A stretch of DNA of 42,598 nucleotides from Hyphomicrobiales bacterium (lineage in GTDB: Bacteria; Pseudomonadota; Alphaproteobacteria; Rhizobiales; Beijerinckiaceae), in NCBI GenBank assembly GCA_900470095.1, contig UBZM01000007.1:1-42598 (forward strand), written 5' to 3'. Of this stretch, positions 15,101-17,863 are shown in pieces. The first letter of the stretch is position 1. Each line of letters opens with the position of its first letter. Under the pieces are notes generated by a model. That model saw only the letters and a list, made by a program, of their open reading frames with translations. It did no database searches and had not been told where the DNA came from. The position numbers and the translations under genes were made by a program.

Positions 15101-15836
15101 CCGCCTCCTCCGTCGCGACCGGTCGCCCCCGGCCGACACCGCCCAAGCGATGTCGGCGGCTTCCGCGGCGGTCGAGCGTGGAGATTACGGTGCGGCTCTG
15201 GCCATCTGGGGGCCGCTCGCTCACGCCGGTGTGGCACGCGCCCAGAACAATATCGGTGCCTGCTTCGCCGAGGGACTGGGCGTCGAGCCCGATCCGGCGC
15301 TGGCGCTGCGCTGGCTCCTGCTCTCGGCCGAAAGCGGCGATCCGGTCGGCCAGCGCAATCTCGCCGCCCTGCATTTCAAGGGCGACGGCGTCGCGCAAAG
15401 CGACGCCGAGGCGGCCCGGCTCTACCGGCTCGCGGCCGAACAGGGTGATGCGCCGGCGCAGGACATGCTCTCCTGGATGCTGCTGGAGAGCGGCGATGCG
15501 GCTGATCTGCCCGAGGCGCTGCGCTGGGCGGAAGCCGCGGCCGGGGCCGGGATTGCTGCCAGCATGACCCGGCTCGGCATGATGCATCACGAGGCGCTCG
15601 GCGTAGAGCGGAACCCGGTGCTGGCGGCGCAGTGGTGGCAGCGCGGCGCCGAAGCGGGCGACGCCGACGCTAAGGCCATGCTCGGCGCCGCGACACTGCT
15701 CGGCCAAGGCGTCGCGAAGGACGCTGCCCGCGCTCTCGGCCTTCTGCTTGACGCCGAGCGCGGCGGCAGCCTGCTCGCCGCCCCTTTCATCAAGGCAGCG
15801 CGCGCGGCCGTCGCGCCCGAAGAGGCCGCGCCATGA
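15087..15836 (+). CDS. Sel1-like repeat (TPR-type) protein between selA and selB
   Basis: 249 residues made of tandem Sel1-like helical repeats of about 36 residues: A-x-x-x-L-G/A-x-x-x-x-x-G-x-G-V-x-x-D-x-x-x-A-x-x-W/L. Repeats are clear at about 50-85 (AQNNIGACFAEGLGVEPD), 86-121 (GQRNLAALHFKGDGVAQSD), 122-157 and 158-195 (SMTRLGMMHHEALGVERN), 196-230. No signal peptide is seen, so it is probably a cytoplasmic protein-protein adaptor. It overlaps selA by 14 nt and selB by 4 nt, the tightest coupling in the cluster, which argues for a role linked to Sec synthesis or delivery. That role is inference; the name Sel1 refers to a eukaryotic protein and not to selenium. Confidence 0.85.
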   Translation: MPLLDRLLRRDRSPPADTAQAMSAASAAVERGDYGAALAIWGPLAHAGVARAQNNIGACFAEGLGVEPDPALALRWLLLSAESGDPVGQRNLAALHFKGDGVAQSDAEAARLYRLAAEQGDAPAQDMLSWMLLESGDAADLPEALRWAEAAAGAGIAASMTRLGMMHHEALGVERNPVLAAQWWQRGAEAGDADAKAMLGAATLLGQGVAKDAARALGLLLDAERGGSLLAAPFIKAARAAVAPEEAAP

Positions 15837-17863
15837 TCATCGGCACGGCGGGCCATATCGATCATGGCAAGACCTCGCTGGTGAAACGCCTCACCGGCGT
15901 CGATACCGATCGCCTCAAGGAGGAGAAGGAGCGCGGCATCACCATCACGCTCGGCTTCGCCTTTTGGCCGCAGCGGGATGGCCGGATCATCGGGTTCATC
16001 GATGTGCCTGGTCACGAGAAATTCGTGCATACAATGCTGGCTGGCGCCTCCGGCATCGATTTGCTGCTGCTCGTCGTGGCTGCCGATGACGGAGTGATGC
16101 CGCAGACGCGCGAGCATGTCGACATCGCCCGCTTGCTCGGCATTGGCCAAGCCGTTGTCGCGATCACCAAATCCGACCTCGTCGAAGCGGCGCGCCTGGC
16201 CGAATTGCACAGCGAAATCGGCATGCTGCTTGCTGACACGACATTCCCTGACGCACGGATCCTGCCGGTCTCGACTGTGACCGGGGCGGGTATCGCCGAG
16301 CTTGCCGCGCTGCTGAGCGAACGAGCCAAATCCTCGCATATGCGCAGTGGCGATGGCGCCTTCCGCCTGGCCGTGGATCGCTGCTTTACACTCTCCGGCG
16401 CCGGCACGGTCGTCACCGGTACGGTCCTCTCCGGAGCAGTCGCGGTCGGCGACGGCATCATTGTCTCCCCCTCGGGCATCCCGGCACGCGTGCGCTCGAT
16501 CCACGCCCAGAACCTCCCCACTGAGCGAGGGACTGCCGGCGATCGCTGTGCTCTCAATCTCGCCGGGTCGGAGATCTCAAAGGACGCGATCCATCGTGGC
16601 GACATGATTGTCGCTCCGCATCTGCATGCACCGGCCACGCGGATCGACGCCGAGCTCACCATCATCGCATCCGAGAAGAAGCCGCTGGCGATGTGGCAAC
16701 CGGTGCGGCTGCACCATGCGGCAACCGAGGTGGGCGCCCGCATCGTCCTGCTTGGCGGCGAGATCGCGCCCGGCGCGACGGCGCTGGTACAGCTCGTGCT
16801 CGACAGCCCAATCGCGGCGGCCACGCTTGATCGCTTTGTGCTGCGCGACACCAGTGCCTCACGGACGATCGGCGGTGGCCGCTTCCTCGACTTGCGTGCG
16901 CCGGAGCGTCGGCGCCGAAGCCCGGAGAGGCAAGCCCAGCTGTTCGCCCTTGCCGAGACCGACGACGCGGAAGCGCTGGCAAGGCTGCTCGACGAGCCGC
17001 CCTATCATGCCGAGCTGGAGGCCTTCGCGCGTGACCGCGCCCTGGGGCCCGGGCAGTCTGAGGCACTCGCGGCCAGGCTCGGCCTTGTGCCAATCGGTGC
17101 TTCGGTCATGCTCCCGCAGAGCTGGGAGAACCTCTCCGGCTCGGTGATCGAGATCCTGACAGCCTATCACGCCGACCACCCCGACCAGCCGGGAATGGGG
17201 CTGGAAAGGCTGCGGTTGGCCGTGACGCCGCGCTTGCCCGCTGCCGTCTTCCGCACGGCGTTGACCCGGCTGGCGCACGCCGGTGAACTCGTCGTCATCG
17301 GTTCCTGGATCAGGCGGCCCGAGCACGAGGTCAGGCTGACGCCGCAGGATGAGGCGCTCTGGGCACGCGTGGGGCCGTTGATCGGGAGGGGCGAGCGCTT
17401 CCGCCCGCCCCGCGTACGCGATGTCGCTCAGATCCTCGGTTGCCGAGAGGAGGATATCCGACGCCTGTTCCGCCTTGCCGGGCGTCGCGGCGACGTCCAC
17501 GAGGTCGCACTTGACCACTTTTTCCTGCGCGATACGGTCGCTGAAATGGTCGGCATCGCGGCAGATCTCGCGGCTGGGAATCCGGCCGGGTTCAACGCCG
17601 CGCAGTTCCGCGACAGGCTCGATAACGGCCGCAAGGTCGCGATCCAGATCCTCGAATTCTTCGATCGCCATGGCGTCACCATCCGCCGCGGCGATCTCAG
17701 GCGCATCAACCGCCAGCGGATCGACCTGTTCGGTCCGCTGGCGGTTGATGCGTCGAATGGAGGAGAAGCGTCCCCGGTGGGGCGTCCGGACTTCAAATCC
17801 GGGAGGGGCCGTCAGACGGTCTCTGGTGGGTTCGACTCCCATTCTCTTCCGCCAGCTCACTGA
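15833..17863 (+). CDS. selB: Selenocysteine-specific elongation factor SelB, reading frame running through selC
   Basis: EF-Tu-like GTPase that brings Sec-tRNA(Sec) to the UGA/SECIS. Motifs: P-loop GHIDHGKTS (7-15), ERGITITLGF, DVPGHEKF (57-64), and TKSD (112-115) in place of NKxD, as is common in SelB. Beta-barrel domains II and III follow to about residue 370, then C-terminal winged helices for SECIS binding, ending in NAAQFRDRLDNGRKVAIQILEFFDRHGVTIRRGD. Family-like sequence ends near residue 634 (DLFG). The frame then continues without a stop through a hairpin and the entire tRNA-Sec (residues 643-674) to a TGA at 17861. Total 676 residues. The last 40 or so are probably not part of the ancestral protein. 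Confidence 0.94.
   Translation: MIIGTAGHIDHGKTSLVKRLTGVDTDRLKEEKERGITITLGFAFWPQRDGRIIGFIDVPGHEKFVHTMLAGASGIDLLLLVVAADDGVMPQTREHVDIARLLGIGQAVVAITKSDLVEAARLAELHSEIGMLLADTTFPDARILPVSTVTGAGIAELAALLSERAKSSHMRSGDGAFRLAVDRCFTLSGAGTVVTGTVLSGAVAVGDGIIVSPSGIPARVRSIHAQNLPTERGTAGDRCALNLAGSEISKDAIHRGDMIVAPHLHAPATRIDAELTIIASEKKPLAMWQPVRLHHAATEVGARIVLLGGEIAPGATALVQLVLDSPIAAATLDRFVLRDTSASRTIGGGRFLDLRAPERRRRSPERQAQLFALAETDDAEALARLLDEPPYHAELEAFARDRALGPGQSEALAARLGLVPIGASVMLPQSWENLSGSVIEILTAYHADHPDQPGMGLERLRLAVTPRLPAAVFRTALTRLAHAGELVVIGSWIRRPEHEVRLTPQDEALWARVGPLIGRGERFRPPRVRDVAQILGCREEDIRRLFRLAGRRGDVHEVALDHFFLRDTVAEMVGIAADLAAGNPAGFNAAQFRDRLDNGRKVAIQILEFFDRHGVTIRRGDLRRINRQRIDLFGPLAVDASNGGEASPVGRPDFKSGRGRQTVSGGFDSHSLPPAH
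17702..17752. repeat. Perfect 19-bp inverted repeat at the 3' end of selB, abutting selC
   Basis: Bases 17702-17720 are the exact reverse complement of 17734-17752, with a 13-base loop (17721-17733). As RNA this is a very stable hairpin. It lies inside the selB frame and ends 6 nt before the first base of tRNA-Sec. No T run follows, so it is not a simple terminator. It may protect the upstream mRNA after tRNA processing, or be an inserted palindrome. Confidence 0.9.
17759..17854 (+). tRNA. selC: tRNA-Sec (anticodon TCA)
   Basis: 96-nt selenocysteine tRNA, CCA encoded. The acceptor stem has 8 bp: 17759-17766 with 17843-17850, including one G-U. The long D stem has 6 bp: CGTCCC/GGGGCG around CGGT. 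The anticodon stem CCGGA/TCCGG carries loop CTTCAAA with anticodon TCA at 17793-17795. A long variable arm (about 9 bp, loop CAG) follows, then the T arm GTGGG-TTCGACT-CCCAT, discriminator G17851 and CCA. The 8+5 acceptor-T helix is the bacterial tRNA-Sec hallmark. The whole gene lies in phase inside the selB reading frame. Confidence 0.97.

Follow-up and report, generated by a model that had tools for sequence, protein, structure and literature searches.

How can the same bases serve both as the gene for selenocysteine transfer RNA (tRNA-Sec), selC, and as the 3' end of selB, the gene for the factor that carries this tRNA, and is the reading frame that joins the two kept by selection? This question is raised by a locus in contig UBZM01000007.1 of assembly GCA_900470095.1, deposited under the name Hyphomicrobiales bacterium; positions 1 to 42,598 of its forward strand are referred to here as the window, meaning the whole stretch of DNA that was analysed. 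Judged by its closest named relatives the source is a Bosea bacterium, these relatives including Bosea sp. LC85 with 92% SelB identity. In the window the 3' end of selB contains the entire tRNA-Sec gene in phase. Such nesting, together with the model that one transcript gives either the tRNA or SelB, has been in print since 2021 (Mukai, 2021; PMC8124441). What is novel here is a quantitative test of the reading frame, which goes beyond that published, sequence-based proposal.

The tRNA-Sec gene lies in phase within selB

The selB open reading frame (ORF) occupies positions 15833-17863 on the forward strand, as do all features described below with a strand unless stated otherwise, and its 676 codons include a linker, the tRNA-Sec gene and 2 codons beyond it. 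No stop codon occurs inside this frame, neither before nor within tRNA-Sec. The predicted product matched TIGR00475, the SelB equivalog, over residues 1-625 with 435.2 bits (cut-off 242.25), and the family profiles PF09107 and TIGR00475 terminate at residues 624-625. By linker count the last conserved SelB motif, D-L-F, ends at F633, in agreement with an earlier note on this DNA in which SelB-like sequence was placed as ending near residue 634. The 43 residues beyond F633 consist of a 9-codon linker (17732-17758; 8 codons long in the 13 other Bosea-clade loci), 32 tRNA codons and 2 more. For selC, which has a UCA anticodon, ARAGORN called a tRNA-SeC at 17758-17854 (anticodon tca) and Rfam RF01852 matched 17759-17850 with 79.3 bits (gathering score 47), the 3' end at 17854 being set by G73 and the encoded CCA beyond the Rfam match. 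The gene at 17759-17854 comprises 96 nucleotides (nt) with its encoded CCA and corresponds to selB codons 643-674; since (17759-15833)/3 = 642, tRNA base 1 is base 1 of selB codon 643, the first tRNA codon being GGA and the last CCA. The earlier claim that the selB frame crosses all 96 nt of the tRNA as residues 643-674 is borne out by the ORF, ARAGORN and Rfam alike. After the CCA follow the codons GCT and CAC and then the selB-frame TGA stop (17861-17863), 6 nt past the CCA and 6 nt ahead of the ATG of the next frame, ORF1; the stop that had been described as lying 7 nt after the tRNA is this same codon, as 6 nt intervene and the first base of TGA is the seventh.

The genome contains one full-length SelB match, six further matches scoring 20-65 bits, and one tRNA-Sec above the Rfam cut-off, and the nested pair is therefore the working pair. 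All three frames of the tRNA-Sec in the window are open, so that one open frame alone is weak evidence and the case rests on the comparison of loci.

Nested loci are widespread among relatives

For this comparison a sample weighted by design to near relatives was used. Within the family of the window, a strong tRNA-Sec (E <= 7.7e-13) was present in 57 of the 298 genomes drawn, giving 58 loci with genome G227 counted twice; 35 of these loci are nested, in 13 selB stops ahead of selC, and 10 are without a usable same-strand SelB match. From the order, 31 of 397 genomes matched at E <= 1e-11, including the window's own genome and three of its family, and 28 new loci were contributed, two being repeats of genomes already sampled, with match G333 left out. 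The addition of 80 named loci, the best 80 of 560, brought the number examined in all to 166, the window's own included. A search of plasmids for named copies gave 111 records, 70 of which are Sinorhizobium, Ensifer or Rhizobium.

ARAGORN found tRNA-Sec in 163 of the 166 loci (none in L128, L142 and L147). Among the 163, nesting was found in 100 (92 distinct loci and 8 copies) and a selB stop before selC in 40 (36 distinct loci and 4 copies), hereafter stop-before loci; in 3 (L071, L163, L167) the stop lies inside the tRNA, at bases 46-48 or one base later in a 97-nt tRNA, and 20 have no adjacent same-strand SelB match, copies kept. In the earlier note it had been proposed to compare the C-termini of SelB in relatives, with the nesting to be doubted if all relatives had a stop before selC. 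In fact 91 distinct loci other than the window's own are nested and 36 stop earlier.

Several loci of the sample have peculiarities of their own. The contig of L163, in which the selB stop lies at tRNA bases 46-48, is labelled Candidatus Eremiobacteraeota, but its SelB falls beside Dyella/Rhodanobacter in the tree; the contig is probably mis-binned. In L141, L144, L150, L153, L156 and L160, of the Brucella/Ochrobactrum group, selB stops before selC, and their tRNA-Sec has a stop codon in the frame that nested relatives use, as expected after loss of nesting. A tRNA-Sec with an ACCA end (A73, not G73) is present in L074, L075, L076, L080 and L081, all of them stop-before loci; L151, which duplicates L080, bears the title Methylopila jiangsuensis, and an A73 tRNA-Sec has been noted for Methylopila (Mukai, 2021; PMC8124441).

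The reading frame is maintained through and past the tRNA

With tRNA starts fitted by acceptor pairing for the counts of phase and length, the phase in which the frame enters the tRNA is identical in 92 of 92 nested loci and the tRNA is 96 nt long in every one of them. The 36 stop-before loci are spread over the three phases (13, 13 and 10), and their tRNA is 96 nt long in 25 cases and 93, 95, 97 or 98 nt in the others. Counted from the last conserved residue of SelB up to the tRNA, the linker occurs in 22 different lengths, from 6 to 31 codons, among the nested loci, which requires at least 21 length changes on any tree and at least 42 on a FastTree of SelB (128 sequences, 91 nested). Frame 1 of the tRNA is open in 80 and frame 2 in 87 of the 92 nested loci, so that most linkers out of phase would also have been scored as nesting, and no linker of another phase was found among the 92. 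When the selB frame is followed beyond the CCA, 90 of 92 loci reach their first stop in no more than 13 codons (median 6.5 codons), as against 18 of 92 in frame 1 and 11 of 91 in frame 2 (medians 35 and 133 codons); the difference between the selB frame and the other frames gave a Mann-Whitney p of 9e-29, calculated over loci that are not independent. A single phase despite 22 linker lengths, together with the near stop, argues for selection on the frame beyond the tRNA, and this is best explained by ribosomes reaching that far, which makes read-through very likely.

Proposed consequences for the transcript

The nested frame suggests that SelB is read through the tRNA to the stop 6 bases on and that a transcript is at any one time either a SelB message or a substrate for making tRNA-Sec, a reading that we regard as probable, with considerable room for doubt. 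Ribosomes would translate SelB straight through the tRNA to its stop. Ribonuclease (RNase) P cuts at the first base of a tRNA, and from this established step of tRNA processing the either/or consequence would follow: a cut at 17759 would produce a selB messenger RNA (mRNA) without a stop, and a message for ORF1 without its leader, so that translation of ORF1 and of the following ORF2 would be cut off. The genome contains a gene for transfer-messenger RNA (303.8 bits), and products of nonstop messages can thus be cleared; trans-translation would remove the stalled SelB product. The net effect would be to hold SelB low relative to its tRNA. The earlier note had gone further in stating that one transcript could give tRNA-Sec or SelB but not both. 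By the anatomy the two fates would be mutually exclusive at any one time, but over the life of a molecule "not both" is too strict, because several rounds of translation can precede the cut. A literature search covering titles and the beginnings of abstracts returned no wet-laboratory test of the nested selB-selC trait.

Alternative explanations for the maintained frame

The frame might be kept simply so that translation ends near the start of ORF1 or ORF2, or soon in any case, through plain translational coupling or avoidance of run-on translation and with no either/or control. Of the 91 loci that could be judged, 59 have the start of a frame of 100-400 codons between -4 and +21 nt relative to the selB stop, and in 42 of those 59 the two overlap; by a separate counting rule, overlap at -1 occurs in 39 of the 92 nested loci. 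Overlap of the selB stop with the start of ORF1 or ORF2 has also been stressed for many loci, as a trait that is not defining (Mukai, 2021; PMC8124441), and the far greater open lengths of frames 1 and 2 noted above fit this explanation as well. Starts beside the selB stop thus suggest coupling to ORF1/ORF2. Against this, the 32 loci without such a start keep the phase equally, and all 32 have a stop within 13 codons when the selB frame is read, as against 7 and 5 when the other two frames are read. The split into 59 and 32 is rough, as starts were unchecked by homology and five Bosea-clade loci fall among the 32 despite an ATG nearby. Coupling to ORF1/ORF2 is therefore likely to be part of the cause of the frame and not the whole of it, and as the sole cause it is unsupported. 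Moreover, a cut by RNase P would break the message whatever the cause of the frame. Coupling or run-on avoidance without control is a possibility to be taken seriously, albeit rather unlikely. Several points nevertheless weigh against either/or control of SelB and its tRNA. The kept frame suggests that translation after the tRNA matters, not that SelB and tRNA are coupled, and avoidance of run-on would give the same pattern. The selB stop of the window does not overlap the next start, unlike that of many relatives: the published frequent trait is absent here, the TGA being at 17861-17863 and the ATG at 17870. The sampling leans to near relatives, 80 loci being the best 80 of 560. Finally, at least 11 changes between the nested and the non-nested state are required on the SelB tree, 6 of them forced by starred branches, and the arrangement is in this sense dispensable; these changes of state themselves rest on a FastTree with 30 open forks of 125, which holds 128 of the 131 distinct rows (L010, L015 and L048 were too short).

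The tail encoded by the tRNA could instead be a functional domain of SelB that aids, for example, binding of tRNA-Sec or of the selenocysteine insertion sequence (SECIS) RNA. The tail is much alike across nested loci and rich in Gly, Arg and Ser, but such likeness is expected from the conservation of tRNA-Sec alone. Diversity at codon positions 1, 2 and 3 is 0.136, 0.064 and 0.481 in the last 30 SelB codons and 0.611, 0.588 and 0.662 in the first six linker codons, so that the linker is nearly unconstrained, and the GC pattern by codon position seen in SelB is absent from the linker and from the sequence that follows the tRNA. Within the tRNA the summed diversities are 3.98, 2.99 and 3.09 for 67 distinct nested sequences, with no third-position excess among them, and 5.31, 3.18 and 5.66 for 21 distinct non-nested 96-nt sequences, a loose comparison, since it is confined to 96-nt tRNAs, 30 non-nested loci were dropped and the remaining 21 include gammaproteobacterial ones. 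A functional tail peptide was sought as codon-position constraint in tRNA and linker, and none was seen. Together with the tolerated changes of state, the lack of such constraint makes a functional tail domain very improbable and any importance of the tail as a peptide unlikely; selection appears to hold the geometry, that is, the frame, the quick stop and the handover to ORF1. The overlap might also be inconsequential if selC has a separate promoter within selB, or if processing of the selB mRNA is too slow or too rare to affect SelB. Loss of nesting is tolerated on the tree, which would agree with this, but the frame was kept through at least 42 changes of linker length, and a scan of 12700-19900 for sigma-70-like sites, weak for this bacterial class, returned 0 where 0.6 are expected by chance, so that no promoter of selC's own was found there. 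We consider this explanation improbable, if slightly less so than a functional tail. That a sequencing or assembly error erased a stop before selC can practically be dismissed, since nesting recurs in 91 further distinct loci, including that of Bosea sp. LC85.

A hairpin precedes the tRNA in the window

Directly ahead of the tRNA, a stem of 25 base pairs (bp) with a 5-nt loop (17700-17754; 17700-17724 paired with 17730-17754) is formed by the last SelB codons and the linker and ends 4 nt before the tRNA. Folding of 17690-17758 gave -52.4 kcal/mol (z -9.3). Among the 14 Bosea-clade loci the hairpin is strongest in the window, the linker of which is 3 nt longer; several other loci of the clade have weaker forms of it, and it measures 16 bp in L099 and is weak in L094, the nearest relative. 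When pairing of the linker was compared with that of linkers shuffled by single bases, the clade proved uneven: z was -13.5 for the window, +0.26 for L024, and weaker than -2.1 in 7 of the 13 loci other than the window's own. The mean z was -3.53 in the Bosea clade (n=14), -1.32 in other nested loci (n=74; 4 of the 92 with linkers of more than 25 codons left out) and -1.02 in the 19 of 36 stop-before loci with a spacer usable by rule, and four control offsets inside selB gave -0.85, -0.52, +0.07 and -0.14. The hairpin as a general part of the nested trait is only partly supported by these values. The text of the 2021 study, figures apart, makes no mention of Bosea, hairpins, stem-loops or RNase III (Mukai, 2021; PMC8124441).

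A precedent for cutting at such a structure is arfA of E. coli, in which RNase III cleaves an in-frame stem-loop and so leaves the mRNA without a stop (PMC10107115). Common to arfA and to the model for the nested tRNA is an RNA structure within the frame that brings about cleavage, a message lacking its stop, and repression through trans-translation; arfA differs in that the enzyme is RNase III and its target a stem-loop, where RNase P and a tRNA are proposed here, and in that ArfA is itself a rescue factor. The window has a 25-bp stem in the selB frame, at which cutting by RNase III would be putative. By this analogy, the Bosea hairpin could be a second, arfA-like RNase III site ahead of the RNase P site, both structures deciding between SelB and tRNA, which we consider doubtful. 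The perfect stem may equally well, or better, be a chance templated (quasi-palindrome) mutation, because the hairpin of the nearest relative is weak.

The surrounding selenium cluster

The cluster is a normal selenium operon, with the gene order formate dehydrogenase with an in-frame UGA, fdhE, selA, a Sel1-repeat gene, selB-selC, two small ORFs and selD, the last on the opposite strand. The in-frame UGA of formate dehydrogenase alpha (8586-8588) joins the frames 7872-8588 and 8601-11072, and a SECIS_3 element (8583-8641) lies directly at it; this enzyme is the likely client of the nested tRNA-Sec. In the mechanically made list of ORFs it appears cut in two at the UGA. Between selA (13697-15100; PF03841) and selB, the frame of the Sel1-repeat protein (15087-15836) overlaps both neighbours. 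ORF1 (17870-18340, 156 amino acids) looks similar to frames that in many relatives begin at the selB stop or close to it, and ORF2 (18327-18707, 126 amino acids), which overlaps the end of ORF1, resembles frames behind selB-selC in many relatives; the GTG start of ORF2 was deduced from the 126-amino-acid frames of relatives. Profile searches gave no Pfam or NCBIfam match for ORF1 and no Pfam match for ORF2. A strong inverted repeat (18761-18799) with 17-nt arms and a 5-nt loop separates ORF2 from selD, whose ends converge on it; although no T run accompanies it, it may be a terminator that works in both directions.

Relation to known systems and significance

In E. coli, selAB is autoregulated through a SECIS-like element, which balances SelB with its tRNA; SelB binds near the start of the operon and no nested tRNA is involved. 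This operon has been named as a different system of SelB autoregulation (Mukai, 2021; PMC8124441). The same study described selB-selC nesting in diverse Rhizobiales and put forward, from sequence alone, the model in which tRNA processing leaves the selB mRNA nonstop, so that either tRNA or SelB results; nesting was called highly conserved, yet not essential, and the tRNA length, mostly 96 or 93 nt with GGA as first codon and CCN as last, was seen as aiding upkeep of the frame. The window has in common with these pairs a whole tRNA-Sec of 96 nt in direct orientation in the selB frame, beginning with GGA, and with their cluster fdoGHI-selAB, the Sel1-like gene and ORF1/ORF2, the last two being equated by place and size, not by sequence comparison. 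It differs from them in a stop 6 nt before the ORF1 start, without overlap, and in the 25-bp hairpin before the tRNA. The nested trait is taken up again in a 2022 review and a 2026 review. In mitochondria of Armadillidium vulgare, as cited by Mukai (2021; PMC8124441), the cox1 frame likewise contains an entire tRNA, tRNA-Lys, in direct orientation, and a similar either/or relation was proposed; that case differs in its compact mitochondrial genome and unrelated genes.

A tRNA gene that codes for part of its own carrier factor is a rare clean case of RNA and protein specified by the same bases. For the nested loci of this group, the frame test provides quantitative evidence that points to passage of ribosomes through the tRNA, and it is the geometry of the arrangement, not the tail peptide, that appears to be kept.

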